DNA of 52,914 bases. Origin: Terramyces sp. JEL0728 (Eukaryota; Chytridiomycota; Chytridiomycetes; Rhizophydiales; Terramycetaceae). Position numbers and translations under genes: made by a program. The stretch spans positions 1 to 52,914 of the forward strand of contig JADIIU010000090.1 of assembly GCA_027603945.1 (NCBI GenBank). The letters are read 5' to 3'. Below are positions 3,766 to 52,914 of the stretch, one piece after another. The notes under the pieces were generated by a model, which saw only the letters and a list, made by a program, of their open reading frames with translations, had not been told where the DNA came from and did not search any database. Positions within the stretch are counted from its first letter, which is position 1, and every line of letters begins with the position of its first letter.

Positions 3766-3896
3766 ATTGGTTCTTGGATTTGTTATTGCCCGTTGATCTT
3801 GTACTTTGAAACCCCAATTAAGACTGGCGATTCAATGTCTAGTGTGGCTATTTATCCGCACATTGCATAAAAACAAGTAGAATCAGGTTTTCTAAA

Positions 3897-10266: not shown

Positions 10267-10354
10267 AATAGTTGTTCTTTGAAGGCTTTCTTTCCAATAC
10301 TCAAGACATCTGCCATAATAGTGTTGGCAATTTTAGGATCTTTTGTCAAAAAAA

Positions 10355-11065: not shown

Positions 11066-11131
11066 ATGGAGTGACTTTTTGGTATTACAGCCAGCACAAC
11101 CAAGACTATCTAAAATATAATTTATTAAAGC

Positions 11132-12300: not shown

Positions 12301-12428
12301 TTTTGGAAAAAATAAAACAATGGCAACAGTATTATAGAATAACCCCTGTGCTACTGTGATAAGAAAGCTTAAATAATCATAATTAAACTTTGAGCAAACT
12401 ATAAATAGTCCAGCGTGCAGATGTAGGT

Positions 12429-12592
12429 ATGGACGACTTTAATCATTTGGATGGGATTGGAACTCGAGAACTCCACGAGCTGTTTCCAGAACTAGCTCGC
12501 GAACAGGACTTGCAATTGCTTGATCCCGCCCATAGATCTTGCGAATCTAATCAACGCTGCCAATTTCAAAATGCCCAACAAAGCAATAATGT
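12429..12592 (+). pseudogene. Truncated 5' fragment of HFM1/MER3 at the duplication junction
   Basis: First about 54 codons of the HFM1 gene (MDDFNHLDGIGTRELHELFP onward), matching the intact gene at 23154 with two residue changes (R for Q, A for V). The frame is cut at 12590-12592 and runs on into the acyltransferase 5' flank, giving 13 foreign residues before a stop at 12635. No helicase motif is retained. It is the right-hand remnant of duplication copy 1. Its upstream DNA is the HFM1 promoter region, so this now stands in front of acyltransferase copy 2. Confidence 0.9.
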
Positions 12593-12631
12593 ACAAAAGC
12601 AATTTCCACGACATTCGAACCTCATCTTCAA

Positions 12632-14506: not shown

Positions 14507-14626
14507 ATTGGTTGTTATTGCCCGTTGATCTTGTACTTGTTTCCATTAAGACTGTGGCAATTCTATATCTAGTGTGGCTATTTATCCGCACATTGCATAA
14601 AAACAAGTAGAATCAGGTTCTCTAAA

Positions 14627-14911
14627 ATGCCAACTGCCGAATGGAACGGAAAGATTATCGCATCATCGGCCACTTTTGAAAAAGTAGAAGGCAACATCTA
14701 TTTCCCAGTCGATTCAGTTGATAAACAATACTTGAAAGAGTCAAATACACATACTACGTGCGGATGGAAAGGGGTAGCTTCCTACTATACGCTATCTGTT
14801 GACGGAAGGGATAATGCGGATGCTGCATGGTACTATCCTGTTCCCAAACCCGCAGCTGATAACATCAAGGGATATGTTGCCTTCTGGAAAGGAGTCAAAG
14901 TTACCGCTTGA
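14627..14911 (+). CDS. DUF427 family protein, copy 2
   Basis: 94 residues, same family blocks as the gene at 3897. Differences from copy 1: V for I in YFPVDSVD, T for M in HTTCGW, V for I in WKGVASYY, R for K in DGRDN, V for A in YPVPKP. The open frame and the stop within TGAATAAA are kept. The excess of replacements over those in the flanking genes suggests relaxed constraint or simply a region not homogenised by conversion. Confidence 0.84.
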   Translation: MPTAEWNGKIIASSATFEKVEGNIYFPVDSVDKQYLKESNTHTTCGWKGVASYYTLSVDGRDNADAAWYYPVPKPAADNIKGYVAFWKGVKVTA

Positions 14912-15132
14912 ATAAATATATCAATTTCAGCTTGTTTTATTGAAATATTCCAGTTTGCTGCTCGTTTGATAGGTACAATTAATATGAGAAACTTGCTCTT
15001 TCACTGCAACTGCGCTAATATTCTCATATGTTCCTGTCTATGGGGAATATCAGAGCGATCTATGCATGATGATAGCCAAAGTCACTCGAAATCAATTTTC
15101 GGACATGAAATTTCTTGTAAAAATCTTTTTGA

Positions 15133-18100
15133 ATGGAAGAGGAAGACTTTTCAAAAATTGATTTGCAAGGCCGATTAGCCCATAAAGTACTCTGTTATTA
15201 ACCAGTCATGGAAAGCTAGGATATCAGGCTATGAGGAAATACAGAAACTGTTGAAACAAGGTGAAACTGTTGATTCTGGATTCATACTGAAAGCTATTTC
15301 TGATTCAAACCAGATCGCTTTAGAACAAGTACGTTGATTCTCAACCGTAGGGCATATTGGCAACTTTGGAATACTCAAAAACCAATACGCTGTCGCAGAA
15401 ACAGCTGAATCAATTGGTTATTTGCCTGGCTTCGACTAGACAGACTACTAAACAGACTGCGCAAGAGATTATCATGTTGAATATTGAAAAATCTGATCCA
15501 GCGACAGTATTGGAAATTCTGGTGGAGGCTTTTGGACACAAAACACCAAGGAATGTTGCAAGTGCTGTAAATTGCCTTGTACTAATCATCAATAACTTTG
15601 GTGTTCCTAGTATTCAAATTAAGCCTGTCCTGGGGAAATTATCTTTCCTCTTTGATCACAAAGATAAAAATGTTAGAGCTGAAGCTACTGCAATGACTGT
15701 AGAAATATTTAAATGGATCAAGAATGCGATTATGCCTTCTTTGCAAGAATTGAAGCCAGTGCAATTGAAAGATCTAGAGACTTTGTTTGAACAAAATAGA
15801 GATACTGTTCCTGCAAAGCAAAGGTATTTGTATTTAATCCAGGTATTTATCTAATGAAAAACCTAAAGCTGTGACTGACGCTGCAGAGGAAACTGTGGAA
15901 GAAGCCGCTGAGCAGACTGTTCCTGATGTCTTTGATTTTGCCGATCCTGTTGCGTTCATTGACAAAATTCCAAAATCATTTTATACAGATATTCAAAGTG
16001 CAAAGTGGAAAGAAAGAAAAGAAGCGCTGGAACTATTGCTTGGTTTACTATCTTATCCGAAATTGGAAGATGGTCGGTACCACGAACTTGTCAATATACT
16101 CAGTAAGAAATTAGCCGACCCAAATGTAGTTGTGTTGATTGTTGCTGCAAATTGTTTGGAAAAGTTGGCTTCTGGATTACGGGGTTCATTTAAAGAGTAC
16201 AGAAATATCGTTGTTTCGCCAACTTTAGATCGTCTCAAGGAAAAAAAGACAAATGTCATTGAAGCTTTACGAGCGCTGCTTGATTCAACTTACAAGAGTG
16301 TAAGTTCTTTTTTACTGTAGATAAACAAAGTAGGTGATATACTCGAAGACGCTTTGGCTGGAATGAACCACTCTAACCCTGTAGTAAAGAATGAATCTAT
16401 CCAGTGGCTGATCAGAAGCATGTCCAGCAAATCAAAAACGGAACTCTCAAAGCCAGAGATGAAACAATTGATCGAAAAGTTGTTGAAGCAGATGGATGAT
16501 GGTTCTGCAGATATTAGAGACTCTACCGCGCAATGTTTAGCTGTAATGATGAAAGTGTACGGTGAAAAGCTGGTCAACCCATTCTTGGATAGATTAGATA
16601 AAGTAAAACTGCAAAAAGTAACGGATCACTTTGAAAAGGCAAAAGGAGGTGCACAAAAAGTAGTTGAAAACCCAACTGAAAAGAAACCTCCGACAGCTCA
16701 AAAAGTGCCATCCCCAAAACCACTTTTAACTCGGCAGTCAAATTCAACTCTCGCCGCCGTGTCTCCACCAGCTAGTCCAAAGCCAGTGAAAACTCTGAAA
16801 AAGAAAGTCACTGGATCGTCGTCAGTAGCAACTCTTGGACCAAAATCAAACTCCCTTCCAGAAGAGGTCAAATACAGATACAGTGACGATAGTGCGATTG
16901 AATACATTGAAACTAATTTCAACAAAGAGGCTTTTGCTCAACTTGGTGATTCATTGTGGAAGATTCGACTGGAAGGTACAGTCTAACTAATTGAAGGAAT
17001 TCACAAAATCCTTGAGGTATTCAAAGAAAAGGAATTTGATACTGAAGCTCTCATTCGATATCTATTGAAAAAGCTGACTTGGAAGGAATCAAATTTCCAA
17101 GTAATGGTCGGAATGGTCAATGTTTTCACTATGACAACCACAAAGCCAACTTTTGATAGAGGATCTGGTGTTTTACTAGCTCACGGATTAGTGGAGAAAT
17201 TGGGGGACATGAAAATCAAAAAGGTAGCCGCCAATTGTCTGGATGAAATTTCAACAAAAATTTCCCTTAACGCAGTATTGGATGAAGCTTACCCAGCCAT
17301 TAGGCAAATGAAAGCCCCAAAAATCATTGCAGACACATTACTCTGGATCAATCAGAGTATAAAAGAATTTGGAGTTGCCGGGTTAAGTGTCAAAAGACTT
17401 GTTGGCTTGTGTAAAGAAATGCTGAACAGTCCTGCTGCACCTGTAAAAGCTCAAGCAATTAATATTCTGGCTACACTTAGACAATTTGCTGGACCTAGTA
17501 AGATATATATTTAATTCAGGTATTCGTGACATGTTGGCGGAATTACCTGCCAATGTACTATCAAACATTGATGCTGAATTTGGTAAAGTCGAAAAGTTGG
17601 CGCCGCCAGTTCCTACAAGAACGCAAGAAGCAAAACCCTTGATCAAAGAAGTGTTGGTAGCAAAATCTGACCTCAATGTTTCTCCAGAGTTGCTGAACAA
17701 GATGAATGATGCTAATTGGAAAGAAAGGAAAGAAGGCATGGAAGAATTCTCCAAATTATTATCAATGACTTTTGCATTAACTGCTAATTTGTCCTCTGAA
17801 ATCATAAATACCCTCAAAGCTCGGTTGAACGACAACAACAAAATCATTGCCACTTTTACCGTAGAAATTTGCACTGCGTTAATTAAATTAGTTGGCAAAG
17901 GATTTGATAGACATATAAAGATGTTAATTCCAGCTATATTGTCTCAATTGTCAGATCAAAAGCAGCAAATCAGAGATAAAGTCTTGGTGTTACTGGACCA
18001 AGCTAATTCTGCAATCGGAATAGGATCAATCTTGGTTAATATTTCACAATCACTCTCTCAAGATCAACCTCAAGTCCGCAAAGATTTATTGAAATGGCTG

Positions 18101-20988
18101 GCAGATAATAACAGCGCGCTCAAAGGTGAACAAGATAATGCGAGTCTGGTGCAGCCTTTGCTTGCATGTCTGCAAGATCGAAATGCTGACGTGCGCAAGT
18201 TGGCTCAAAGTGTAATTACAATCTTGGCAGAGTATGTTGACGTGGCATTCATCAGACAAAAAGCTGGAGATTTGTACCGCGGTGCGCAATTGGCATCAAT
18301 AACCCCTGTCCTTGAATCTTTAGGAGGGAGCAGCGAATCGACGCCTACAAACCCATCTACTGCTTCGGCAGTAACAAAGCAAGTATCGGAAAAGAAAAAA
18401 GTAGCAACCAAAGTAGCCAAACCAGCGGCAGTATCTGCCCCAAAGAAAGAACCGGCTGTGGAGGCAGTTAATGATGGTAATTTGTTGGCTGGTAGCGATC
18501 TTAAACTCAAAGAACAACGTGCTTCAATGGACAGAGGTGTTTATAAATGGACTTTTGACGCTCCAAGAAAAGATTTACAGGATTTACTTGCAGATCAGTT
18601 CCAACCTAATGTGTCTCCAGATTTGTTTGCGTTGTTGTTTAGTGCTGATCACTACAAGGAAAAGGACTATCTCAATGCGCTAAAGATGCTACACGCTTAC
18701 ATCACGGATCCGCAAACGGACAAGCAAATATTGATAGAAAGATGTGTTGCAAACTGCGACTTGATACTCAAATACACAACTATTCGATTCTTTGACACCA
18801 ATACTTCAATATTCATCAAGTGTTTAGATTTACTGGAAAGTTTCTTGCTAGTCTTGGATGAAGCCGGGTACTATTTCAACGAATATGAAGCCTCAAGCTT
18901 CCTCCCGTTCTTCATCAACAAGATGGGAGATCCAAAAGAAACTATGCGGGTCAAATTGCGTGCAATCATGAAGCAAATTGGACGGCTCTACCCTGTTTCT
19001 AAGCTACTGTTGTACTTGCTCAAAGGACTTGATTCTAAAAACTCGAAAACCAGGACAGAATGTCTGGATGAAATTGCATATTTGATTCAAAGAAATGGTT
19101 CCAGCGTCTTTGTTCCGTCGAAAACCGTTCCTGTTATTGCGCAACAAGTTGGCGACCGCGATGCTTCCGTTCGTAACGCTGCTTTGAATGCAATCTGTCA
19201 GGCATATTCTGGATTAGGCGATGATGTATTTAAACACCTGCAGAAAATCACCGATAAAGATCGTGATATGATCAATGAAAAGATTAGACGCATGGGGCCA
19301 AGAGCTGCAACTGTGCCTGCGGTTATTCCTTTGCCTCAAGGGTCGCCTCTTATAGCTAGAAAAATACCAGTGTCCTCAAGAAGTGCCACTCCGCTTAGCA
19401 GCTTGCCGGTTGAAGCAAAGAGTCCATTGTCTGCCAACCTACCAATTACTGTAAAGAAGGAATTTTCGTTAAACATTGACGAAATCTTTGAAAATAAGCC
19501 TGTAGAAGCTGCTCCTCAAAAACTAAACCGATTGGATCATTTGGAGAATCTGGAAGACAGATTAGAGGTTCGTTTGGAATTAGTCACAACACAGTTATTC
19601 AGCAGCGACAACGAAGTGGTTTTAGAGGCCGTTCGTCATTTGGAAAAGCTGATAGTTGCCAACTCTAACTCTGATACTATCCACTCTCGTAATCTTGTTG
19701 GATTGATTACGCCTTTGATGAACAACTCGTTTGCGAACCTCGGGACTGACAATGTGGTTAGTCGTATTTGCAAGCATTTCATTTCGGTATTAATCGGCAT
19801 CTTTTCCAGCAAAGAACAAGCTGTGTTTGTGGAATACGAAGCTTTGGAGGGCTGCATAAGAAGTGTATTGACAAGGTTAGTTGATCCAGCCCTCAACTCA
19901 TTTGACCCATCTAAAACCTTGTCAAGGGCTCTCAATATGTTGATGGTCCGTATTATAGAAAACTGTCCCCCAAACGCTACTTTTAGGTATTTATCAGTTG
20001 ATCATAGGGCATTGTTGCAAATTCTCAAAGAAGCCTCTCTAGAACCTGAAAGCTTTGAAGAATCCACCACTCTAAGCCAGAAGAAATACACAGAGCTGGT
20101 AATGAAATGTTTGTGGAAAATCACCAAAGTGCTGTCCGCCTTTATTGAAGGTAATCAATTACAAGTTGATGCCCTGCTCTTGGATATTCACCTGTTCTTG
20201 TCAGCAGCATCACCGCAATTTTGGAAAGCTAAGGTTGTTGAAGGAAAGTCTGCGCAGCCAGATATGCCTCTGCGCACAGTCAAGACCATTATGCACGAAT
20301 TAGTCAATATTTTAGGCGATGGTGTACTATTGCACACCGGAGCGATTCCAAACAATAGTCAGAATCATGTTTACAACTACCTTACCCAGATGATATCAAA
20401 TTTAACCAAAAAGAAACTGGGAGAAAGCCCAGGTAAAACACCTTCGCCTAAATATAACCGTGGTCCCACCGACTCTGAATTGTTGAATATTCTGGATGAG
20501 ATTTTCAAACAAATTTCAGACACGGAATCCAGCAAAGTTGGATTAGGTCGTTTGGCCGAACTTCAGAAACAGCATCCAAATGTTTTGCCATTGCTAGAAG
20601 TAAGACTGTCAAAGGAAGGTTCGTTCTTGCAATCGTATATCAGACGGGGGCTAGCTGCTATTTCACAGGAAGAAGTAGCAAAGAATACAGGCAAGCTAGC
20701 TTCTTTTGCGAAACCAACCCAAGACACTGTTGTCGCCAATATGTATGACCAAAAACTCCAAACACTACAAAAGATGTTTAAGAGCAACCAGATATCAGTA
20801 AACATTAACTAATCTAGCATGTGTCTACCACCTCAATTAACAGGACTGTTCCTACCCCGAGTATTACAGGAAATCCTATTTCATCAGTCAAAGATGTACA
20901 AAATGAAAAGACTTTGATGGATCTCAAGGAAAGATTGGCTAAAATGAAAAGGCTGGCCAGTAACTCTGTGGAGAACCTAGATCAATAA
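15133..20988 (+). CDS. XMAP215/Stu2/CKAP5-type microtubule polymerase, copy 2
   Basis: Full-length paralogue of the gene at 4410: 1903 residues, five TOG domains, seven introns at the same places (15187-15205, 15329-15350, 15824-15842, 16300-16320, 16976-16996, 17498-17519, 20798-20817). Intron 4 is 21 nt here against 22 nt in copy 1, one T being absent from its T-run. Residue differences cluster in the first third (for example VENPTEKK for VGAPTEKK, TGSSSVATL for TGSPSVATV). The large exon from about 17519 has only two changes (G for S in LGDGVLL, E for K in RLAELQK). It appears functional. Confidence 0.94.
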
Positions 20989-21073
20989 AATAGTTGTTCT
21001 TTGAAGGCTTTCTTTCCAATACTCAAGACATCTGCCATAATAGTGTTGGCAATTTTAGATCTTTGTCAAAAAA

Positions 21074-21784
21074 ATGAATCACTATCAAATACTTGGAATA
21101 GAATTTGCAGCAACAGATAAAGAAATTAGAAAAGCAGTGCGTGAGAAATCATTAATATACCATCCGGATAAAGTTGGTGATGACCAAAAAGCCGCTGAGC
21201 AGTTCCACTTGATTCAATTGGCAAAAGAAACTCTTCTTGATCCAGTCCTAAAACCGACATATGATTCCAAAATCAAAGCAGAACAGCTAAAGGATTTGAG
21301 GTTCAAGGAAATGAATGAACAAAGGCAAAAGGAGAAAATCAACTTGGAAAGGAGGGAAGAAGAGGCACGGAAACGAAAGTATGGAGATATGAATGAAAGA
21401 GAGCAAAAGCAGATTAAACTGCAGCAAATGAGAGAAAAGAATCTTCAAAGAACTCTTGCAAAGAAACAGCAAAAACAACAAGAGCGGATACGATTGCAGC
21501 CAGTAAACACAAATGATTTATCAATAATAGTCAAATTTAAAGATACTGATTCTATTGCACTGAAGAATTATTTTTCCAATTATGGTGAAATTAGTGATTT
21601 GATTTATAAACCAAAACAAGCGATAATCATTTACAAGGAAATCAATAGTGTCAAGGAAGCAGTAAAGTGTACGGATTTCACAGTCAAATCACTCACCGAT
21701 CGGTATCAAGGCGTGCACCTGAGTAGCGAGGGCAAAGGGAAAGAGTACGAGGATATCACTCTTAATAAACTAGGTAATTTATAG
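21074..21784 (+). CDS. DNAJC17/Cwf23-like J-domain protein, copy 2
   Basis: 236-residue paralogue of the gene at 10355 with the same J domain (HPD in YHPDKVGD), charged middle helix and RRM-like end. By eye the protein is identical to copy 1, with a few silent base changes. The run of A before the ATG is shorter here, which also removes the in-frame upstream TTG seen in copy 1 and supports the ATG used. Confidence 0.85.
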   Translation: MNHYQILGIEFAATDKEIRKAVREKSLIYHPDKVGDDQKAAEQFHLIQLAKETLLDPVLKPTYDSKIKAEQLKDLRFKEMNEQRQKEKINLERREEEARKRKYGDMNEREQKQIKLQQMREKNLQRTLAKKQQKQQERIRLQPVNTNDLSIIVKFKDTDSIALKNYFSNYGEISDLIYKPKQAIIIYKEINSVKEAVKCTDFTVKSLTDRYQGVHLSSEGKGKEYEDITLNKLGNL

Positions 21785-21841
21785 ATGGAGCGACTTTTTG
21801 GTATTACAGCCAAGACAATCTAAAATATAATTTATTAAAGC

Positions 21842-23010
21842 TTATTTTGAAGCTACAAAGCTGAATCCTTCGAAAGGATTCGAGTCAATCAACAATAGCT
21901 GATCATTCAAAAGACTGTTGCTGGACATTTCAGTAAATTCAGCAGCGAAATTACTGGTATCTAATAAATCATGGAGAACTGGTTTGTATGGCGGATCGTA
22001 CTGCTTTTCCATCACCTTTTTCCAGTCTAATTTTTCAAAGAATGAGTGAGATTTGATCTGATCTATTCCTTGACTGCCCAGCCTAACCCCAGGGTGTTTC
22101 TTCAACAGCTAATATTAATAGCAAGTACTTTGGTCAATAAATCTCTGCTCAAAGTAGTGAGATATTTGGGGAAATTTGGTTTCTTCTTTAGCACGTTTTC
22201 CATTATTTTCTTTCTATTGCTTCCTGAAAATGGTGGCGATCCGGTAAGCATATCATATAGCATTATCCCCAGACTCCAGTAATCAACCACTTTGCCATAT
22301 GGCTGCTCCTGGATAATTTCTGGAGCCATAAATTCTATTGTTCCGCACACTGTATGAGCGTCAATTGCCACTTTAGACAATCCAAAATCAGTTAATTTAA
22401 TGTGTCCTTCGCAGTCCAACATTACATTTTCAGGCTTCAAATCGCGATAAATAATCCCCAAGGAGTGCAAATGTTCAATACCCAACAGTAATTCGGATAT
22501 ATAAAATCTACTTGCATCTTGAGAAAACATTCGTTCCCGATTTAAAAGAGTAAATAACTCCCCTCCTGCACAATAGGTGAGGATCAAATACAGTCGAAAT
22601 GGGCTTTGAAACGCATAATACAGCTTCACAATAAATGGCGAATCAATATCCTTTAAAATACTCCTTTCGTTTCTAGTTTGTTGTTCATGTAATACAATAC
22701 TTGCTTTTTTTAATACCTTCATTGCAAACGATTGTTTGGTTTCAATTTCCCGCACCAAATACACTTTACCATAAGCTCCCTTGCCAATGACTGAGAGGAC
22801 ATGAAAATCTTCCAGCTGCACCCTCTTGCCGAGTGAATAGTTTTTTATTGGCAGGACAATATCGTCTTTTTGTATTTTGGAAAATGACGAATTAATTGGT
22901 TCGGATTCCAGACTAGTGTGCATATCATCGAATTGAAATATTTCTTGTTTGTCGTCTGAATTGTCTGATTGCACTGATTCATTGTCGTCCATTTCTGAAA
23001 AAACGTGCAC
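21842..23010 (-). CDS. AGC-family S6-kinase-like protein kinase, copy 2
   Basis: Paralogue of the kinase at 11132; 382 residues, one 20-nt intron at 22109-22128. All catalytic motifs (GKGAYGK, AMKVLKK, YRDLKPEN, DFGLSK, CGTIEFMAPE) and the NPFEGFSF hydrophobic motif are intact. One replacement was noticed (L for S in YLTTLSRD, end of the kinase core). It is divergent from HFM1 across about 140 nt, whereas copy 1 is divergent from the truncated HFM1 fragment. Confidence 0.92.
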
Positions 23011-23153
23011 TTTTGGAAAAAATAAAACAATGGCAAACTATCGGCAGTATTATAGAATAACCCCTGCTACTGTGATAAGAAAGCTTAAATAATCATAATT
23101 AAACTTTAAGATGTCGAGCAAAACTATAAATAGTCCAGCGTGCATATGTAGGT

Positions 23154-26100
23154 ATGGACGACTTTAATCATTTGGATGGGATTGGAACTCAAGAACTCCA
23201 CGAGCTGTTTCCAGAACTAGCTCGCGAGCAGGACTTGCAATTGCTTGATCCCGTCCATAGATCTTGCGAATCTAATCAACGCTGCCAATTTCAAAATGCC
23301 CAACAAAGCAATAATGTTCTTGGAAACACACACAAAATCAAGACAAGTTCAATTGCAAACGGTTCTTTCTTTAAATTCGAGTACTTTAACGAAATACAAA
23401 CAAAATCATTTGATATAGTATACAACACTCGAAGCAACTTCTTGCTGGTTGCTCCAACTGGATCAGGAAAAACAGTAATATTCGAATTAGCAATTTTGTC
23501 TTTATTACGAACCAACACATCCCCAAAGATTGTTTATATAGCACCTACAAAAGCATTATGCCAAGAACGATTCGAAGATTGGCAAAAAAGATTCAGCTTT
23601 CAAGTATCATTGATAACTGGCGACGTATCTCAAAGCAGCAATTACAATCTACTAGTTACAACTCCCGAAAAGTTTGATTCTATTACAAGAACTAGTAGTA
23701 CGATATTTCACCTTGTTCTTGTTGACGAAATTCACTTTATTAAAGATCGAACCAGGGGTAGTTGTCTTGAAGTACTCTTAACAAACTTGGAACCAAGAAT
23801 AATCAGTGTGTCTGCAACAATCTCAAACATTCACGACATATCAATCTGGCTGAATGCAAAATTACTCTATTTTGGACAGGAATACCGGCCTGTACAACTG
23901 CAAAAGCACGTATTTGGATTTCCCGTTAACAATACACTGTTTGCTTTTGAGGATGGGTTAAAGTACAAGTTGTTTGGGCTGATTAGCACGTATTGGCAAA
24001 AGAAACCTGTCCTTGTGTTTTGTTGTACACGCAAATCTGTTGTATCAACTGCTGAATATATTACCACGCAAACCAATATGTTTACTTCTTGTGATGCAAA
24101 AGTTGTAGATAAAAAACTTGGGTTGTTGTTGAGAAAAGGGGTTGGATTCCATCATGGAGGTATTTACCATTTAATTTAGGTTTGTGTTACAATGATCGAA
24201 AGATTGTTGAAGAACTATTTCTCACTGGTAAGCTATTATGTTTATTTACTACCACCACATTAGCAGTTGGAGTTAATTTACCAGCACATCTGGTAATTAT
24301 CAAAGGAACAATGCAGTACAACTTCAATACTGGTAAATTGGAAGAATACTCTGATTTGGATCTGTTGCAAATGATTGGCAGAGCTGGTCGGCCACAATTC
24401 GATAATGCTGGGACTGTGGTTATCCTAACAACATCAAACAGAAAAAAGTATATTGAAGATATAGCCGATGGAAAAGACATAATCGAAAGCAGTTTACATT
24501 TAAACCTAATTGAACACTTGAACACGCAAATATTCAAACGTAAGTATATTTTAATTAGAAACAATTGCAAGTATTGAGACGGCAATGGAATGGCTGAAAG
24601 CTACGTTCTTGTACTTGCGAATACAAAAGAATCCGGGATATTATCAATTCAAGAATATTGCTAAAGAAGATGGATTAAAGACAGCTGAAAATAGACTAGT
24701 TTCGATATATAATACCGAATTAAGCAGACTTGTTGATGCAGGGTTTGTGAAAACCAATCCAGATCGGTCAATAATGTCGGTGACAAGTACTGTTGTTTAA
24801 TGTAGAATATGGTGATATTATGTCTCGATATTACTTGAAATTCCAAACTGTGGTGAATTTCACGAAACTATCTGATTACAAGCAGCAGAAAGTATTTAAT
24901 TGTCTATGCAAAGCACAAGAGTTTGATGAAATTAGGTTCCATTCGGATAAAGCGGTTTTAAACCAAATCAACAAACTCTCTGGAATCAAATATCCAATCA
25001 AAGGCAAGGTAACTGAATTGTGGCAAAAAGTAAGCTTATGTCTGCAAGTATCTATTGGAAACATTTCTTTATCTGATATAAAATCGAGCACTATACAATC
25101 GGATATTACTAGCATCTTGTCTATTGCAAAACGGTTACTTGGAGGAATGAAGAGCATATTTATTGAAAAAGGTGAGGTTGAAGGAGTAATTTCTGCTTGC
25201 AAGTTATCGCAGTCTATTAACTGTCAACTTTGGACTACTGGACCAATATTAAAACAAGTAGAAGGCAATTATTCTTAATTTAGGAGTTGGTTTGCAGTTT
25301 TGCAGAAAGCTGGAGCTGTCTAAAGTGTTTACATTTGAAGATTTGCAAAACCAATCCTCCCAAAATATTGAATCGATGTTAGGTAGAAACCCCCCTTTAG
25401 GCAAAAGCTCTTTAAGATAGGTACAAAAATTTTGGCAAGTGTCAACAAAATCCCACGACCTTTTATTCAAATTCACTCGCTTTCCTCTCATGAGATTGCT
25501 GTGGGACTAGAAAACCCTGGGACTTCCTTAAGGGTATTCAAGTCTCGGCAGATTTCTTTTCAGTTAGTTATCTATTCGTCTGCCACGATTCTGAAACAAA
25601 CTAACTTGACTGTAAACAATCTCATTTCCAGGTATACAACCAGGGTCAAATCTCCTACAATAACAGTTGAATTAATTTGCAACGATTATGTTGGAATAGA
25701 TATCATCAAGAATTGTGCAAACCCAGAAACCAGCAAGTTTTTCAAGAGTACATCAATTGAGTTTGAAGGTGATGATATTTGGAACTCTGTCAATTTTGAT
25801 GATTTGATGGATATGGCAGACGAGAAATGTTGCAATCATAAATGCGTTGATAAATCGAAATGTGCACATAAATGTTGTAATGATGGTGTTTCTCAACGAA
25901 CTTTAAAGAAACGTCAGGCTTCCAGAGATTTGGAAAATCTTATTGATATTGACAATGGCCAACCCAATATCAAGAAGAATAGCACTATTGATAAAGCGGA
26001 TAAAACACTTGTGATTAATCCAAAGAAGAGACTGATTGCTACATTTGAACATTACAACGATAGCCCATTCTCTGACGTCTTTGATCAAACTATGCTTGGG

Positions 26101-30368: not shown

Positions 30369-33300
30369 CTAGCTCTCGAATTTAACGAAAATGTTGGAGA
30401 ATTGCCATTGGGTCTGTGATATTCCGCTGGCAGCAGAGTTGTCCCTGTTTGCAGACCAGAAAGAAAGCATGCCAACCCAAGCATTGTTGTTTGCAAAAGT
30501 AAATAGCGCGTTCGCATCTGCAATGCTGAACCGTTCGGATGCAACGTCATTTTTACCTATCATTGGAACGATACCCAATTTAGTGTTCAATCCTAACGTT
30601 TGTACTTGCTTGAAACAGTTGGAGGCTGCTTGAATGACATAGCCGCCTTCAGCAGTTGCACCATTTGGAGCCAAAGTACTACCAAAGTTCATTGTCAATA
30701 GCAAAACGAAATCTATACGGACACCATAGTTGATTGCTGATTGTAATATATAAGTTGCAGTGGTGGTAAAGCCGGAAGGAGTGACTGGCAGCGAGAAACT
30801 AACTCGCAAGTTTGGATCAATAACTTGCATTGTTCTCAATACTTGGTTTCTGAAATCAATCACAGCATTAGAGTCTGTGCCAACTTCGAAATTGATCCAT
30901 TCAACGGAATATGCATCAATAACATTCTGGTAGTGCATTTGCAATGTGTTTGCATCGGTAACAACATTTGCCAATTCGGTTCCTTTTGGTCCTCCAAAGG
31001 TGATTATTGGCTCGCCTCCAAATTTTCTAATTGTCTGGATTTCGTCAAAGTACCAATTTTGAGAAAGAGGAACTGTTCCTCCCCAAGCTGGAGCTTTGTC
31101 TGTGCCAGCGGTAATGTAAGCCAGAATATAATGTCCCGAACCAACTTGGTACTTCATGTTTGCTACATCAAATGTTGGGGTTGCCGAAACATCCACATAA
31201 GGTGCAAAAATTTTGCTGTTCCAGATGTAGCGTCCAATATAACTGGTGTCAGGCTGGACCGGTATTGGAGGAGTAGGAGCAGTTGGGAGCTGAGTGGATT
31301 GGGCTGGTGGGTTTGCTGGTTGATTTGAAGTAGATTGTTGAACTGGTGATGGAATCTGAGAAGAGGTAGAAACCTTGTTAAAGATCTTTGCAAAGTCAAA
31401 GTCATTTTGAGTAATTCCAGAAGATGCATATAGTGCACCACCCTTTGATGTATCCCTGTTGATTGACCAGAATGCGAGCAAACCGACCCAGCTTGTAGTC
31501 TGAGCAAATGTAAGAACTTGTTGCGCATTTGCGAGAGTGAATACCTCTCCAGCAACATCGTTATTTCCAATCATTGGAGTCAACCCAACTTTAAAGTTGG
31601 TCATTCCACATTGCTGACCTTGTTTATAAGTGTTCTGAGCAGCTTGGATAGAGTAGGTACCCATAGAATTAGCACCATCAGGAGCAACTCCAGAGCCATA
31701 ATCCATGGTCATAATATTGATGACTAGATTAGATAAAACTCACCATCATATTGTAATTTGTTAGCAACTGCATTCTTTAAAATATTGATTCCCTGGGACA
31801 CTAAACCACTTGGTAATACCGGCAATGTAACAGAGATAATCAATCCAGGATTTGCAGCTTTCAATGCAGCCAAAGCTTTATGTCTTCTATCAATTGCAGC
31901 AGTATCGTCACCAGCTGACCCTTCAATGTCAAAATCAATATAATTGGCTTTGTACAATGTCAACACGGACTGATATTGACTTTGCAACGTGGCTACATTT
32001 GTCGTGACATGTGCAAGTTCAGTTCCTAAAATTATTCATTAAATACCTGAAGCACCGCCAAAAGAAATAATAACATCACCACCGTTATTTCTTAGCGTCG
32101 TGATCTTGTCCAAGTAGAAAAGTTGTTTAATATCAACTATACCACCCCAGGCTGGATTACCACTGGTTCCAGCTTGAATAAATGCAAGGGTAAAGAATCT
32201 AGTTCCAGTTGCAACGTTGACTGCGTTAATGTCAAACGTTGGATACAGTAATATGTCACAGTATGGAGCAAAGTTTTTGTTGGCAACCGACAATTTTCCA
32301 GTTTGCGTTGATGGAGTTGAAGGAGTATTAGTAGTAGATGGTGTACCTGCTTGCGTGGTAGCAACTGGTGGGATTACAACCACTGGAGGATTTGTAACTT
32401 TTGGAGGGGTTACTGTCGTTGTGATTGGTGCAGGTCCAGTTGCTGCTTGAACTCCAAGAGGTATTTTAGCCCCACAGTTACTGAATCCAAAGTATTGGCA
32501 AACGATAGATGAAATAGCATTAGGATCAGGGTAGGCTGCGTATTGTGATTCAGGCTGCTTTTGAATTGCCCAGATCATAATACCTCCTCCTTTATGAGAA
32601 GTAATAAATCCTAAGAGATATTGCAATTCAGCAACTGTCAAGCAATGTCCTAGTTTGCAAGGTGTAGTCGGAGAATCTTTAGGATATCCTTCCATTGGAG
32701 GTTCCACACCTAGAATAATTGGTCCAGTAAAGTATTTCTGATATGACAATAAAGCCAAAGTTGGATCATAGAAGCCGACATTGACATTGTTGTTGTTTGG
32801 ATTGACGATATAAGTCTTTGAGGAAGGACTCCAATAAGTATTTGAATCGTAGGACATTACGTTGAGGAAATCTAATTTGGTACCAGATGCTTTCAACATT
32901 CCAATTGCCATACCACCGTTCCACCAACATCCGCACCATCCAGCCGCCTACATTAATGAAAATTACCATATGCACGTTGTCATAAGCTCCTTCACCGAAA
33001 GCACCATATCCATGAACAGCACTTGAAATCAAGTATGGTTTTGGGAAAGCAGAGCGGTATTGATTCACAATATTGATGTACTGAGTATCAGCCTTGCAGG
33101 TTTGGCTCAAAGTGGTGCCTGGAGCTACCCAGGATCCACCACCATTAGAAGGAGCACAATTTGCTTGAGAGTTCATATTGGAAGGATATCCATTCGTTTC
33201 GAAATCGACATCAACACCGTCAAGACCAAAATCATCGACAAATGCTCTCATTGCTTGTAAACTTTGAGTAACACGAGCTGCGTTATATCTAGAGTCTTTA

Positions 33301-36052
33301 GGGTCGTATATGGCCCATCTGGTTTGCGATGGGGTGATTCCCATAGCATTGCAAGTAGCATCACCGTCGACAGAGAAACACCAACCACCAGCAGACACGA
33401 TAACCCTTGCACCTCGAGATCGAAGAATAGCAATTCCTTTCTTGAGGTTTCCAGCAGCACTAGGAATAAAGTCCAAACCAGTTTTTGAAATATCGTAGGA
33501 ACCTTTAGTGTACTGCATCATAGGGTCGACAAATGAGAGTATAACAACATTGTAGTAAGACGGAACTTGGCACAATAATGAAGCAGTTGGATCTGCCCAT
33601 GACTCGTAGTAACCTACGTACAAGTTGCCGGTTGGTAGAGTATTTGGAGATTGTGGGAGTGCTAACAAACTAGGGCAAGAACCAGATGACGCAGGTGGAT
33701 TTGTAGCAGGGTTAGTTGCCGCAGTCGGCTGGACAACAGGAGCAGCGGTTGTTTTAACAGGAGCAACAGGAGGTTGAACAACAGGAGAACTTGTACCAGA
33801 CAGCTTGTTGAAAATATTAGAAAAGGCGAAATCAGCTTGCGATATTTGCGATGATTGATACAAAGGACCATTAACAGAAGTATCTCTTTGCATAGACCAG
33901 AAAGACAAGTACTGCACCCAACTGGTAGACTGTGCAAATGTAAACACTTCCTGAGCGTTGGCTAAAGTGAATATTTCACCAGCAACGTCGTTTACACCAA
34001 TCATTGGAGTGATACCAATCTTGATATTGTTAAATCCGAGTGCGACTACTTGTGTATAAGTGTTTTGAGCCGCTTGGATTCCATACTTGCCCATTCCATT
34101 TGCCCCATCAGGCGCTACAGAAGCACCGCCGTAGTCCATAGCCATAATATTCAATACATCAATAGCAAGCCCGTATTTTTGTGCAGATTGTACAACATAT
34201 AAACCAGCAGAAGTCAATCCACTAGGTAAAGCAGGCAGAGTAATTGAGATATACAATCCTGGGTTAGCAGCTTTGAGTTTAGCCAGTGCTTGTGACCGTC
34301 TATCAATTGCAGCTGTATTGGATAATCCATTTCCTTCAATATCAAAGTCTAGCCATCTGACATTGTATTTATCAATGACGTTCTGGTACTGTTGCTGTAA
34401 TTTGGTAATGTCGGTAGTGACGGTTGCAATTTCTGCGCCATTGTATCCACCAAACGAAACACAAACGTCGCCGCCCATGTTACGCAAGTACTGGATATTG
34501 ATTAGGTAAAAGGGTGATGTGATTGCAGTCTGGCCTCCCCAAGCCGGGTTGCCGCTGCCATCGGCGATGATGAAAGCAAGTACAAACCATTTGGTTCCGG
34601 CATTTGTAGCGAATTTGTATATTTCTGGGGTAGGGAATGCCATTATATCTACATATGGGGCCAAAAATTTCGATGGGATTGCAGGTGCATTTGGTGGTGG
34701 TCCAGCAGGCGGTGGTGTGCCTGTACATGTACCGTAACTCCATTGACACCCAGCTCCACAAAAGCCAGCCGAGGTACCACAATAACCGAATTGAGAACAA
34801 CAGTAATTTCCTCCACAGGCATAGTTGCCGCCAGTAGCACCGCAGCTACTAGGTGTAACTCCATTAGCAGGTTGGATAACAGTAGGCTTATATATAGGTA
34901 TAGGCGCACTAGTAGTAGCCAAGAACCCAGCCTTCTTTTGCCCAAACTGGCTAAAGATCTTGCTAAAAGCGTAATTGTCCTGCGCAATCATCGAGGACAG
35001 CCCCAGCCCTTTCATGCCGCCGTTATCCCTGTTCAAACTCCAAAATCCGATATAGCTGATATAATCAGTCTTTGCACTGAAATCAAGCACTTTTTTAGCA
35101 TTGGCAAGAGTAAATATTTCACTTGAATAATCGTTTTGTCCAATCATTGGAGTAATTCCAAGAGTGGTATTGTAAAAGATTTTAGTCACTTGTGTAATTG
35201 CATTTGACGCAGCTTGAATAGCAAAATCACCCATATCGCCATTCACGCCGTAGTCCATAGTCATCAAATTAATTACATCAAGTTTAATGTACATTTTAGT
35301 GGCTTGTAAAAGTGCAATGACGTTTGCTTCAAAGCCAGCAGTGTCCACAGGTAGAGTGAACGAAATCTTTATCTTTGGAAAGTGCTGTTTGAGTAAATAT
35401 AGTGCTTTTGCTCTTATTATTGATGAATCCAAGTCTGATAGCGCTTCACCTTCAATATCAAAATCGATCCATTTTAAAGAGTATTTTTCAACAACGCGTG
35501 CGTACTTGTACATTAAATCAGTTTCGTTTGTGTATTTTGTAGCCAGCTCTGCTCCGACGGCTCCACCAAAGGATACAATAACGTCACCACCAGCTTGGCG
35601 TAAATTCTTTATATTTTTCATGTACAAGTTCGAGTCCATTGATATTTGGCCACCCCAGCTCGGTTGGTTATGCGAATCAGCGGTAATAAAAGCAAGGTTA
35701 AAGTATTTTGTGTTGGTTAGATTGTAAATGTACGCCAAGTCCAAGTCTGCCATTGTAACATCAATGTATGGCGCGAATACTTTTTGCGGCATTGGCTTTT
35801 GTGTGGATGTAGGTTTAGGGCCACCTAATGGAGGAGGACTATTCATGCCAGTATCACATTTTCCGTATTCTTGTTGACAACCGATTCCACAATGGTCGGT
35901 GGATACTCCACACCTGAAATTAAAAATGTTTACCAGCCATACTGCGAGCAACAGCTGTTTTTACATACTTGCGGGTTGCAAGCAAATCCATTATCGGAAG
36001 TAGAAAAATTGCCTGGCTGAGCTAATGCCAAACCAATTAGCAGTAATTTCAT
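30369..36052 (-). CDS. Giant secreted chitinase-like protein: 2 CBM18 + 5 GH18 modules
   Basis: Predicted 1867 residues. Signal peptide (MKLLLIGLALAQPG). CBM18 at about 25-60 and again at about 397-437 (CCSQFGYCGTSAGFCGAGC). GH18 modules start at about 86, 456, 805, 1248 and 1589, joined by Pro/Thr/Gln-rich linkers. Modules 1, 2, 4 and 5 are one subtype (FAPYxDV start, SFGG, DFDIEG). Module 3 is a different subtype with the full DGVDVDFE active-site motif (Glu near 945). Catalytic Glu is present in modules 1 (about 194), 2 (about 566) and 4 (about 1357). Module 5 has INFEVG and no Glu at that position. Introns at 35914-35933, 32948-32966, 32026-32046 and 31724-31743 (20, 19, 21, 20 nt). Acts on chitin outside the cell: own wall remodelling or host/prey wall attack. 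Confidence 0.92.
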
Positions 36053-36242: not shown

Positions 36243-37084
36243 TTATAAATAAACGTTATTCAAATTAATACGAGAAAGCGTTGCAGGATGCTAAATAAAT
36301 ATAAGAATACCACGTTCTTTACAGTCAATTCCTCTACTTGTTTTTCAGTTTGCTGAATCAATTCATCCTGTTTTTCAAGCAATTTTTGTAAATCGTTTCT
36401 GATTTTTTGTCTTGCTTTTAGTTCTGATTGTAGTATTTGTAGCAGTTGGTCCTTGTCATCTACGGTAAGTGTTTACTTGGGTTGTGATTATGTAACCATT
36501 GCTAATCCAAAGAGTACGTACCTTTTGACTGGTGTTTTTGTTTAGTAACCATTAGTGCTTTCAGTGTATTCATTCCATTTGTTATGCTGACCAATTCATC
36601 TTCCTGATCATTCAACAGATTGGATAATTCATCTATAAATGACTGCGAATAAATATTTCTTTCCTTCCACACATTTAGTATCCTTGATATCTTTTGCTTT
36701 GTTTCTTTTTTTGTGTGTCTATTGTTAGATAATGTCTTTGTCACAAACAAGAATAGATATAAACAACCATATCTCTTGTTGTAAACTCTAGCTTACTTTA
36801 GACAATCTTTGAAGACAGAGGGTAGTACTTGCTTGAACAGAGGAATAAACTCTTTTTTCTAATTAAATAAATAATACCTTAGACTGTACAAGATCATTAC
36901 ATAAATACAGCAAATACAGTCTCTTTTCTCCTACTAGTTTACTGATCTGCTCAACCCACGTATCAACCGATTCTTTGCGTTGAGAATGAAACTGGATCCA
37001 CATACTGGTAATCTGGATTGATTCCTGAGTTGCAGAGAGTTTATCTAGTTTCTGAATCAAAATATCCTTTGTATAGTTTGCCAT
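36243..37084 (-). CDS. Rtt103/RPRD1-like CID-domain protein
   Basis: 220 residues in the preferred model. The N-terminal CID (RNA polymerase II CTD-interacting domain) has LIQKLDKLSATQESIQITSM, WVEQISKLVGEKR, LYLCNDLVQ, IPLFKQVLPSVFKDCL and ISRILNVWKERNIY. A coiled-coil tail follows (LLQILQSELKARQKIRNDLQ). This is the Rtt103/RPRD/Rhn1 layout, involved in transcription termination. Introns: 36859-36877 (19 nt), 36719-36796 (78 nt), 36460-36521 (62 nt), 36291-36310 (20 nt). The 78-nt intron gives the CID spacing expected for the family; a 24-nt alternative would insert about 15 hydrophobic residues. The last intron and C-terminus (HPATLSRINLNNVYL) are less certain. Divergent from ING, 32 nt between start codons. 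Confidence 0.8.
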
Positions 37085-37116: not shown

Positions 37117-37894
37117 ATGCCTGAAGGTGTGGATTATTATACTTTGCTGGAAGAGTTTGTACCTACCATTGACAATTTGCCTAATGAGCTTGGACATGTA
37201 TTTACCGAACTTATAAAGTAACATTATAGTAACATAGGTAAACTGTACTAACACATAGGTAAACTGTATACTAAACTATAGGTAAACTGTATACTAAACT
37301 ATAGGCAAGTATTACCTAACATAGGTAATAAAGAGATAACCGCAGCTCTTCAAATGACTTGCTGGCAATAGAACAACGAGTAAAAAGCCAGGACAATATC
37401 TTTAAAAAACAATTGAAAACAGGAATTAACCAAGAGTGGGGAGAAGACTTGAAATTGCACCAGGGCATCCTGTCAGAGTACGAAAAGAACACTGCAATAC
37501 AAAAAGACAGGATTGAACTGGTAGAAAGAATACGAGATCTAGTAACTATCACTAACGAGGTGGACAAGCACTTGAAGAAACTTTCAACCGAACTGGATAA
37601 ACTGTACGACCAAGATCCCAACCAAATCAAATTAGAAACACCAGTACCAAAGAGAAAGATTCAACCACCAATAAGAAGCTTGCCAATGAAAAAAAAGAAA
37701 CGAGAAACAGAGGACGAGCAGCTGTATTGTACTTGCCATCAAGTCAGCTATGGTGAAATGATTGCTTGTGACGGAAAGAACTGTATTTATGAATGGTAAT
37801 TAATGCTAATTTTAGGTTCCATTTGGATTGCCTGGGAATGGTTGAGCCTCCTACTGGGATATGGTACTGTGATTCTTGTAAAAAGAATAAATGA
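37117..37894 (+). CDS. ING-family PHD-finger chromatin protein
   Basis: 209 residues. The N-terminal ING helical domain begins [19 protein letters not shown] and continues after the first intron with [18 protein letters not shown] and a long coiled coil. A basic linker (PMKKKKRE) and a C-terminal PHD finger follow ([36 protein letters not shown]), which reads H3K4 methylation in this family; ING proteins are subunits of histone acetyltransferase or deacetylase complexes. The PHD finger is split by a 20-nt intron at 37796-37815. The first intron, 37218-37345, is 128 nt and consists wholly of six intron-like units (see separate entry). AATAAA sits directly before the stop TGA. Confidence 0.92.
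37218..37345 (+). repeat. Head-to-tail array of six mini-intron-like units inside the ING gene
   Basis: Six contiguous units, each beginning GT (unit 5: GC), carrying a TAAC/TAAAC-type branch motif and ending in AG: 37218-37237 (20 nt), 37238-37258 (21), 37259-37281 (23), 37282-37304 (23), 37305-37324 (20), 37325-37345 (21). Units 3 and 4 are identical; unit 2 shares GTAAACTGTA with them and is two nt shorter. No bases lie between units. The flanking exon ends in AA (phase 2) and resumes with C, giving a clean frame ([14 protein letters not shown]). Stop codons in the array forbid translation through it. It may be removed as one 128-nt intron or stepwise. Confidence 0.85.
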
Positions 37895-44040: not shown

Positions 44041-44979
44041 TTTGTACTTTTGACATTTTTTGCAAGATTTTGCTAATTAAGGGTTCCCAATAGGACAGCT
44101 AATCTGAGAGAAACCTGGCAGAAAATGTCAACAGCATCGCCTGACCAGTACTTTTGCTCTCTAAACGGTAAAATGTTGCAGGGACTGCTTGATTCAAACG
44201 AGGGTTTGTGGTATAAATATCCAGGCGTATCTGAATCTATACTTACAATAAAATGATCTTCTCTACTGCTCTCATTGCTACCATCATCTCTTCCGTTGCT
44301 GCCATCGACTGGAACCGCGATCAAAACGGAGACTGGGCTTCCAACTGTGATTTCCCTGGAAACGACATTTCTTGGCAACAAACCGAAGGTCCGCAATGTT
44401 CCGCTTACTGCAGATCCGTTCCAGGCTGCACTCAATACTCCTACTACCAGGGATGGTGTTATGCCAAGTCTGGCGGTTTGGGCAGAAACAATGCCATCGA
44501 CAAGCAAGATGTAACTTGTGGTATCAACAACCCACCAAGCACTCCGCCTCCTCCATCTGGAAATGGATACTGCCAAGCTGAACTCTCTGCCAAACGTCAG
44601 CAATACAGAGGAATCAACTCTCCATTGAGCTGGAACCAAGACTTTGCAAACAGAGCTGCTTCTGTTGCAAATCCATGGGTTGGACACCACGATCTTGGAA
44701 ATGGAGCTGGCGGGTTTGTCGGAGGACAAATCATGGCAGGAACTGAAGACTGTAACTACGCAATCCAACTGTGGGTTGAAAATGAAATGACAGCTTGGGG
44801 AAATGGTGTGTGCAAAGACGGCGAAGCTGGTGGACACTGCAGAATCATTTTGAATCCAGGCTACCACAACGTTGGATGCGCTCACACTGGCGGCAATGCC
44901 GTTTGTGATTTCAATTAAATAAATAGACTTTTCACAATGATTTTCGTTTCTATTATGCTAAAGATAGTATCGTTGGATT
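44041..44979 (+). repeat. Inverted duplication, arm A
   Basis: About 940 bases matching the reverse complement of 51973-52914. Homology starts at TTTGTACTTTTGACATTTT and ends at AGTATCGTTGGATT; it includes the whole PAN-CAP gene and about 200 nt of upstream DNA. By eye identity is above 97%, highest in the coding part. The outer edge of the partner arm is cut by the window end, so the repeat may be longer. Confidence 0.9.
44253..44918 (+). CDS. Secreted PAN/apple-like + CAP/SCP-like protein, copy A
   Basis: 221 residues, intronless. Signal peptide (MIFSTALIATIISSVAA, cleavage near 17). Residues about 25-75 resemble a PAN/apple module (GPQCSAYCRSVPGCTQYSYY, GWCYAKSGG). A short Pro-rich linker (PPSTPPPPSG) follows, then a compact CAP/SCP-like domain: CQAELSAKRQQYRGINSPLS, NRAASVANPWVGHHDLGNG, CNYAIQLWVENE, and a C-terminal HNVGCAHTGGNAVCDF. 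CAP proteins are secreted, lipid- or sterol-binding in some cases. The copies differ at one residue (N here, D in copy B, before PGYHNVG). The stop is followed by ATAAATAG. Confidence 0.75.
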   Translation: MIFSTALIATIISSVAAIDWNRDQNGDWASNCDFPGNDISWQQTEGPQCSAYCRSVPGCTQYSYYQGWCYAKSGGLGRNNAIDKQDVTCGINNPPSTPPPPSGNGYCQAELSAKRQQYRGINSPLSWNQDFANRAASVANPWVGHHDLGNGAGGFVGGQIMAGTEDCNYAIQLWVENEMTAWGNGVCKDGEAGGHCRIILNPGYHNVGCAHTGGNAVCDFN

Positions 44980-45265
44980 GACACAATAACCCACCAATAT
45001 ACTTCACCTTGAAGGTGTAACAGTCTCATGTTATTCTTTGTATTAATGGATCATTTTTTGGTCCATGTTCAGCGATTTGGTTTCTATGGTTGAAAATATT
45101 CACCAGCTAGGACAAGGTGTTACATTAGAGATACTTGCCAGCATTTCTCAATAAAATGGTAACTTTGATTATCCAATTGCTTTACGTGGTGCTGTTGCCC
45201 ATCCTCCCTTACTAATTGGAAAGTTACGTAGATCAGGAGCTGTAATAAATGTGAAAGCAAATAAT
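44980..45265. other. Intergenic stretch, no supported gene
   Basis: About 285 bases between the PAN-CAP gene and the propeptide gene. A short frame from 45066 (MFSDLVSMVENIHQLGQGVT) and a second one just after it are open, but I see no start-to-stop gene or family. It may be remnant coding DNA, as the reductase fragment on the other side of the propeptide gene is. Confidence 0.4.
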
Positions 45266-51833: not shown

Positions 51834-51972
51834 AAATGTATATATTAATCAATTTAATGTGGAGTTGGAAAGACTGAAAGAGTTACAACGAAGGGATACC
51901 ATAGCAACCGAGCCGAATTGATGTACTTGCTTTACTAAAGCTGTTGGAATACTACAACTTTGAGGGATATGT

Positions 51973-52914
51973 AATCCAACGATACTATCTTTAGCGTAAT
52001 AGAAAACGAAAATCATTGTGAAAAGTCTATTTATTTAATTGAAATCACAAACGGCATTGCCGCCAGTGTGAGCGCATCCAACATTGTGGTAGCCTGGATC
52101 CAAAATGATTCTGCAGTGTCCACCAGCTTCGCCGTCTTTGCACACACCATTTCCCCAAGCTGTCATTTCATTTTCAACCCACAGTTGGATTGCATAGTTA
52201 CAGTCTTCAGTCCCTGCCATGATTTGTCCTCCGACAAACCCGCCAGCTCCATTTCCAAGATCGTGGTGTCCAACCCATGGATTTGCAACAGAAGCAGCTC
52301 TGTTTGCAAAGTCTTGGTTCCAGCTCAATGGAGAGTTGATTCCTCTGTATTGCTGACGTTTGGCAGAGAGTTCAGCTTGGCAGTATCCATTTCCAGATGG
52401 AGGAGGCGGAGTGCTTGGTGGGTTGTTGATACCACAAGTTACATCTTGCTTGTCGATGGCATTGTTTCTGCCCAAACCGCCAGACTTGGCATAACACCAT
52501 CCCTGGTAGTAAGAGTATTGAGTGCAGCCTGGAACAGATCTGCAGTAAGCGGAACATTGCGGACCTTCAGTTTGTTGCCAAGAAATGTCGTTTCCAGGGA
52601 AATCACAGTTGGAAGCCCAGTCTCCGTTTTGATCGCGGTTCCAGTCGATGGCAGCAACGGAAGAGATGATGGTAGCAATGAGAGCAGTAGAGAAGATCAT
52701 TTTATTGTAAGTATAGATTCAGATACGCCTGGATATTTATACCCACAAACCCTCGTTTGAATCAAGCAGTCCCTGCAACATTTTACCGTTTAGAGAGCAA
52801 AAGTGCTGGTCAGGCGATGCTGTTGACATTTTCTGCCAGTTTCTCTCAGATTAGCTGTTCCATTTGGGAACCCTTAATTTAGAAAAATCTTGCAGAAAAT
52901 GTCAAAAGTACAAA
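51973..52914 (-). repeat. Inverted duplication, arm B
   Basis: Reverse-complement copy of arm A (44041-44979), reaching the window end. The inner boundary is at AATCCAACG (51973-51981). The roughly 7-kb interval between the arms contains the propeptide gene, reductase fragment, mannosyltransferase, mS37, DSC1 and epsilon-tubulin. Confidence 0.9.
52035..52700 (-). CDS. Secreted PAN/apple-like + CAP/SCP-like protein, copy B
   Basis: 221-residue paralogue of the gene at 44253 in inverted orientation. The signal peptide, PAN-like cysteines, Pro-rich linker and CAP-like domain are unchanged; the only residue difference noticed is D for N before PGYHNVG. About 200 nt of upstream DNA is also conserved, so both copies probably share promoter elements. 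The long open frame antisense to it is a shadow, as in copy A. Confidence 0.75.
   Translation of the reverse strand: MIFSTALIATIISSVAAIDWNRDQNGDWASNCDFPGNDISWQQTEGPQCSAYCRSVPGCTQYSYYQGWCYAKSGGLGRNNAIDKQDVTCGINNPPSTPPPPSGNGYCQAELSAKRQQYRGINSPLSWNQDFANRAASVANPWVGHHDLGNGAGGFVGGQIMAGTEDCNYAIQLWVENEMTAWGNGVCKDGEAGGHCRIILDPGYHNVGCAHTGGNAVCDFN

Follow-up and report, generated by a model that had tools for sequence, protein, structure and literature searches.

Zero-exon stacks of complete mini-introns in genes of the chytrid Terramyces sp. JEL0728

In Terramyces sp. JEL0728 (Chytridiomycota), the first intervening sequence of an ING-family gene is a row of six complete mini-introns that abut directly, the exons between them having zero length. 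Such stacks are a real feature that occurs genome-wide and is not a product of chance. The six units are probably removed one by one, and arrays of this kind probably change by tandem duplication and deletion, as far as sequence features can tell. On a broader and bolder reading, held to be slightly more likely than not, the stacks represent an undescribed genome-wide architecture: polymorphic rows in which complete 20-nt introns multiply in place like minisatellites, each independently spliced and all invisible in mRNA. The ING-family gene lies in the window, meaning here the whole stretch of DNA that was analysed, 52,914 nt long (contig JADIIU010000090.1, referred to below as C90).

The ING-family gene (37117-37894) encodes a product of 209 aa when all 128 nt of the stack are removed (Table 1). 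In the spliced product, the ING N-terminal domain (Pfam ING, E 7e-7, residues 11-119) spans the stack junction, which falls in codon 34, and the PHD finger matches YNG2 as well as ING proteins and structures (best E 3.1e-22); both matches bear out the ING identity that a first-pass annotation had given the gene. In the sequence parse, six GT/GC...AG units of 20, 21, 23, 23, 20, and 21 nt exactly fill positions 37218-37345, in the order GTAACATTATAGTAACATAG / GTAAACTGTACTAACACATAG / GTAAACTGTATACTAAACTATAG / GTAAACTGTATACTAAACTATAG / GCAAGTATTACCTAACATAG / GTAATAAAGAGATAACCGCAG. The re-parse thus agrees exactly with the earlier description in coordinates and unit sizes, in the presence of one GC donor, which belongs to unit 5, and in units 3 and 4 being identical. 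Four of the five joints are AG|GT and one is AG|GC; a GC donor is also found in 5/359 solo introns (window and C1 model). The first-pass annotation had also seen a TAAC-like branch motif in every unit. This applies to units 1, 2, 5, and 6, which carry TAAY near their end, but not to units 3 and 4, which carry TAAA (CTAAAC). With the length term included, units 3 and 4 fall under the 5% point of solo introns (2.73 vs 4.2). No second copy of the ING array exists, as the 161-nt stretch that contains it has one place in the whole genome.

Table 1. Features of the ING-family gene and of the neighbouring CID-domain gene, in window positions.
Feature	Position	Strand	Basis or remark
ING-family gene, exon 1 (ATG at 37117)	37117..37217	+	gene model; Pfam ING residues 11-119
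Unit 1, 20 nt, GTAACATTATAGTAACATAG	37218..37237	+	intron score 7.54 vs solo median 8.54
Unit 2, 21 nt; initial 10 nt common to units 3 and 4	37238..37258	+	parse, unit comparison
Unit 3, 23 nt, GTAAACTGTATACTAAACTATAG; branch region CTAAAC, not TAAY	37259..37281	+	weak score, 2.73 with length term
Unit 4, 23 nt, GTAAACTGTATACTAAACTATAG, equal to unit 3 letter for letter	37282..37304	+	parse
Unit 5, 20 nt, GCAAGTATTACCTAACATAG, GC donor	37305..37324	+	parse
Unit 6, 21 nt, GTAATAAAGAGATAACCGCAG, CAG acceptor	37325..37345	+	parse, intron score
ING-family gene, exon 2	37346..37795	+	gene model, frame test
Ordinary solo intron of ING-family gene, 20 nt	37796..37815	+	intron score 11.68
ING-family gene, exon 3: PHD finger end and stop	37816..37894	+	gene model, PHD match
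Two unstacked introns of CID-domain gene, 62 and 78 nt	36460-36521, 36719-36796	-	three to four times normal size

Ordinary introns were described with a purpose-built semi-Markov gene model comprising codon usage, donor, branch, acceptor, and length terms. In the window and C1:1-200000, with 17-26 nt allowed and a CDS of at least 450 nt, the model called 144 genes with 369 introns of 19-24 nt (mode 20), and the statement that the units have the size of the window's ordinary introns, about 20 nt, holds. Gene models under 450 nt or, in later runs, under 300 nt were discarded, and the later stack-aware model permitted 18-25 nt only, so that its upper length limit is built in. Among 263 gaps between neighbouring introns in the same sample, seven were exactly 0 nt and none were 1-8 nt. 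Internal stack units are longer than solo introns (mean 21.8 vs 20.2 nt, P 1e-15), and last units average 20.8 nt. Donors in C1 and the window begin with GTA, positions 5 and 6 being mostly T, and G5 appears in only 18 of 139 preselected candidates; G at donor position 5 is the usual eukaryotic consensus.

The genome (15.0 Mb, 231 contigs) was scanned for joint patterns. The pattern TAGGTA...TAGGTA...TAG with intron-sized gaps has 42 matches vs 9 for its reversal, and AGGTA...AGGTA...AGGT has 91 vs 54. For the latter, 83 of the 91 rows were scored (eight further rows of the C128 arrays being left out), together with 33 of the 54 reversed rows (15 without letters and six repeats being left out). 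Both units reached the 5% point of solo introns, length term omitted, in 59/83 rows vs 1/33 controls, and the sole passing control row sits on the C48 array itself. The 59 rows correspond to 42 arrays on 33 contigs, with gene copies (C37/C56 and two places on C100) counted separately. Other AG|GT-joined arrays, for which the first-pass annotation had proposed a genome search and whose absence would have spoken against its reading, are therefore present. Stricter two-unit patterns containing both branch motifs gave 28 vs 2 and 18 vs 4 matches (forward vs reversed, whole genome). As these strict patterns capture 7 of 90 known joints, the genome-wide total may be roughly 500, although this estimate is crude and biased.

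The stack survey covered C1:1-200000, the window, and 16 array loci, about 300 kb of sequence in total. The array loci were drawn from 30 pattern loci after 14 that repeated these or the window were set aside; L048 and L051 overlap. In this sample, the stack-aware model called 31 distinct zero-exon stacks with 121 units and 90 joints: nine stacks of two units, six of three, eight of four, one of five, three of six, two of seven, and two of eight, with total lengths of 40-182 nt. In C1:1-200000, the one long stretch not picked for stacks, they are rare, with two in 200 kb. Of the 28 stacks at array loci, 17 were found through pattern joints and 11 lack the search pattern. The pattern-free stacks amount to 11 in 34.7 kb of predicted CDS at array loci vs 2 in 160 kb on C1, whereas the density of solo introns is much the same (1.64 vs 1.95 per kb); stacks thus seem to cluster by locus.

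Several host genes are conserved. In the gene for PSMA6, a four-unit stack with three identical units separates the codons of RSQ from those of VQRA, and solved PSMA6 chains align gap-free at this place. The gene for U2A' carries two stacks, and its spliced protein aligns without a gap at either junction; the spliced USP7 protein likewise aligns gap-free at its stack junction. A dynein heavy chain gene (DHC_N1) also carries a stack, and a gene for a HOOK-domain protein carries stacks of 7, 3, 6-8, and 3 units. This HOOK-domain gene (L051 1462-3045, on C128) has about 1.1 kb of CDS interrupted by at least 22 introns, most of which lie in its four stacks, and a predicted gene with an eight-unit stack lies on the opposite strand.

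Unit-wise splicing of the stacks is likely. The spliceosome of this organism would recognise introns of ~20 nt by intron definition, and units would be taken out singly or in small groups, without a fixed order. Each removal would create either another AG|GT joint, with the unit that follows, or the final junction of the exons, so that all paths would lead to the same mRNA. With the mRNA unaffected by the number of units, duplicating about one unit in tandem would be close to neutral, and since all donor-acceptor choices end in the same mRNA, unit number would be free to drift. Sequence similarity between adjacent units bears on whether the sites are in use. Nineteen of 90 adjacent pairs exceed the 99% point of random pairs, while 67 are at or under the 95% point with their joints still standing, though the model calls only stacks with intact joints and decayed stacks would appear as long introns. 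Offering the model long introns as an alternative left 29 of 31 stacks unchanged; one acquired a different first donor, and one absorbed a 44-nt piece. Together, the dissimilar pairs and the unchanged stacks speak for preservation of each unit's sites through use. The 44-nt piece (L048, minus strand, 2089-2151) resembles two 22-nt units, the first of which ends in CTCTG instead of AG; loss of the acceptor may have merged this first unit with the one after it.

Alternatively, the 128 nt could be a single intron, excised in one event with the donor of unit 1 and the acceptor of unit 6, with internal sites that are passive leftovers of duplication. The identity of units 3 and 4, the head common to units 2-4, and the scores of units 3 and 4, the weakest of the stack, would all fit such an intron. 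In a model with 10% long introns and no stacking bonus, one 66-nt piece was preferred for units 3-5; all six units were recovered once stacking and long introns were each given a probability of 5%. Longer introns also exist next door. The CID-domain gene that adjoins the ING-family gene (minus strand, 36243-37084) has a Pfam CID match of E 6.4e-30 across its 78-nt intron, and neither this nor its 62-nt intron could be parsed into units, even with nesting, at any threshold tried. Because these introns are unstacked, the spliceosome apparently removes longer introns at once, so that removal of 128 nt in one step is possible. However, passive sites should decay, yet similarity has been lost in 67 of 90 pairs whose joints stand (only intact joints being callable), and 1 of 31 stacks took up a longer piece when this was permitted. 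Removal in a single step is accordingly considered unlikely, though it is to be taken seriously, and stepwise removal is the preferred reading.

Across the survey, 13 long introns were called when they were allowed (one locus being counted twice), two of which are backed by homology or context. In other model runs, six long introns were called on C1 (29-246 nt) and three in array loci (60, 61, and 207 nt). From the flanks of five of the six, the C1 calls were judged to be mostly merges of adjacent genes; the C1 introns of 61 and 29 nt may be real. A stwintron-like nested peeling of the two CID-gene introns and the 61-nt C1 intron was tried and failed at every threshold. It may be speculated that the 62- and 78-nt introns are decayed stacks.

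Sequence comparison gives good support to tandem duplication as the process by which arrays gain and lose units. Pair similarities indicate that arrays range from fresh (C30, C128, and ING units 3-4) to fully diverged, and identical units also occur in L034 and L048. The clearest difference in number is seen in the dynein gene, which is present in two copies, on C56 and C37. A 99% identical stretch before the stack ends at C56:21388 and C37:35246, and another after the stack begins at C56:21302 and C37:35353. Between them, the stack measures 85 nt on C56 vs 106 nt on C37; the two differ by 21 nt, and a 21-nt unit is present twice on C37 and once on C56 (L043). Over the whole 3-kb dynein query, the copies are 96% identical and that on C37 is 48 nt longer, with 27 nt of the excess outside the stack difference. 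The matches between C37 and C56, which run in opposite order, suggest that tens of kb are shared, as haplotype contigs or alleles or through a large duplication. The earlier proposal that arrays may expand and contract is borne out by this one-unit difference between near-identical copies and by the other arrays across the genome.

Copying has not always involved a whole unit. In L037, unit 5 is a chimera, with an 18-nt head equal to that of unit 6 and an 11-nt tail equal to that of unit 4; in L036, unit 2 joins a 16-nt head of unit 4 to a 17-nt tail of unit 3. Such an arrangement is what a tandem duplication would produce if both of its breakpoints lay within neighbouring units. Several chimeric units thus indicate that breakpoints also lie inside units and not always at the AG|GT joint. 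Copies bounded by AG|GT are present as well (ING units 3 and 4, L034, L048, and the C37/C56 difference). Where the first-pass annotation had proposed tandem copying of a whole intron through the AG|GT joint, tandem copying therefore stands, and the restriction to whole units does not. Arrays would lengthen and shorten through slippage or through tandem duplication and deletion mediated by microhomology. Breakpoints would fall at AG|GT or at corresponding positions within neighbouring units, and those of the second kind would yield chimeric units. We infer both this duplication mechanism and the near-neutrality of unit number.

The exons around stacks may hold a clue to how arrays begin. The exon before a stack ends in G in 24/31 cases vs 170/366 for solo introns, and the exon after it starts with GT in 11/31 vs 24/366 (P 1e-5). 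Either a first duplication aided by the short G|GT repeat or insertion at sites of this kind fits the bias. Under the duplication model, the founding intron would have lain at an exonic G|GT, flanked by a short direct repeat that favoured the first duplication. An exonic origin of the units themselves was also considered: between downstream exons and the heads of the units that precede them there is no resemblance (4.52 vs 4.54 permuted), and upstream exons resemble unit tails only slightly (5.03 vs 4.71, a value reached by 4.7% of permutations).

The flanking bias would also be expected if the units were mobile, introner-like mini-introns that inserted independently at AG|GT sites, existing joints included, so that stacks arose by repeated insertion. 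The dissimilarity of most neighbouring units (67/90 pairs) agrees with this, as do near-matches across loci with one to four interior mismatches, of which 5, 34, 119, and 460 were counted after removal of duplicates vs 0.8, 10, 72, and 291 in column shuffles, an excess for which shared base composition is a possible but uncertain explanation. Against it, among 477 introns in ~300 kb identical introns at separate loci were found only within the tandem duplication of the window, the 161-nt stretch of the ING array is single-copy, and identical and chimeric neighbours are marks of duplication. Repeated insertion is therefore regarded as improbable, and in-place duplication is retained. The ten identical cross-locus pairs are all solo introns; two were placed in the window's tandem duplication and eight were assigned by matching numbering. 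The introner-family reading was thus discarded, as identical copies occur only within this duplication as far as placed, though near-matches exceed the shuffle.

The duplication in question (window 1849-12592 and 12590-23317) is about 10.75 kb long and 98.5% identical, and its genes, by eye, encode a large TOG-type (XMAP215-like) protein, a J-domain protein, and a protein kinase. The window also contains an inverted repeat of about 947 nt (44041-44983 and 51970-52914, 98% identical) with a near-identical 227-codon ORF in each copy, and a long tandem run of ORFs that look chitinase-like (GH18) by eye on the minus strand (30369-35960).

It is very improbable that part of 37218-37345 is exonic, with some units serving as alternative coding segments. 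Units of 21 nt could in principle keep the frame, but the ORF is kept in 0 of 63 retention patterns and the reading frame needs removal of all six units; the N-terminal alignment to YNG2 also crosses the stack junction, although it is weak alone (domain score 10.4 bits, i-Evalue 3.7).

Over-parsing was addressed with two further controls. When the stack-aware model was asked for introns separated by a spacer of fixed length, the 90 joints at 0 nt compared with 1, 0, 0, 1, 0, 3, 1, and 0 at 1, 2, 3, 4, 5, 7, 9, and 12 nt. Random GTA...TAG sequences with the dinucleotide make-up of the sample were parsed in full in 2/20000 cases at 40 nt, 1/20000 at 42 nt, 0/20000 at 63 nt, and 0/5000 at both 85 and 128 nt. 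GT, AG, and TAAY are short and frequent in the AT-rich sequence here, but these random-sequence and spacer controls, together with the reversed patterns (42 vs 9, 28 vs 2, and 18 vs 4), refute a chance parse of the ING stack and leave over-parsing of AT-rich sequence with next to no credence.

If the proposed architecture is correct, the pair of splice sites is itself a unit of tandem copying, and the number of introns at a site evolves fast and almost neutrally. Reconstructions of intron gain usually reach into deep time; stacks would allow gain and loss of whole introns to be followed as changes in copy number, with identical, slightly diverged, chimeric, and fully diverged units coexisting in one genome. 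Intron birth and step-by-step splicing would both be directly testable in stacks. Stacks also pose a mechanistic question: how can a spliceosome, whose size far exceeds that of 20 nt of RNA, process as many as eight complete introns set end to end, and do exons of zero length impede it? Gene-prediction software that assumes a minimum exon may also mis-annotate genes with stacks.

No description of side-by-side mini-intron stacks was found in a literature search devoted essentially to stwintrons and in a few related papers. Introns near 20 nt occur in the nucleomorphs of chlorarachniophytes, in Stentor, and in Paramecium, and stack units resemble these ultrashort protist introns in size; we know of no report of stacking among them. 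Introners are a known source of many new introns in one genome, with self-copies spread genome-wide (PMC9860276). Unlike introners, the 477 introns sampled in ~300 kb include no such copies spread over many loci, and the ING array is single-copy. In tandem genomic duplication, exon sequence generally becomes intron, the AG|GT ends making the duplicated copy an intron; here existing introns have themselves been duplicated into stacks. Tandem duplication is cited as the one mechanism of intron gain shown in vivo (Hellsten et al., 2011, cited in PMC8469720).

The stwintrons of fungi are described as two U2 introns in one intervening sequence that are removed in consecutive reactions (PMC5639578, PMC7138796, PMC12403724). 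They are nested, as the internal intron interrupts the donor, branch, or acceptor of the external one, hence an inside-out order of removal (PMC5639578, PMC7138796, PMC12403724, PMC9024468, PMC8469720). In contrast, the 128 nt of the ING stack are six complete units side by side, none of which is nested.

In long Drosophila introns, recursive splicing proceeds at ratchet points, where 3' and 5' splice sites are juxtaposed around AG/GT, and the segments give the same ligation product as removal in one step (PMC6110457). The hosts are described as very long introns, predicted mostly above 10 kb, the longest 3% of fly introns (PMC6110457). The first-pass annotation had known of no established description of a zero-exon stack; none was found for stacks, but the AG|GT joint as such is known from these fly sites (PMC6110457). 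At the 90 joints, as in flies, AG|GT is the acceptor of one segment and the donor side of the next. Unlike the fly hosts, stacks are not very long, totalling 40-182 nt, and their segments are complete introns of ~19-25 nt, up to eight in a row, in ordinary conserved genes.
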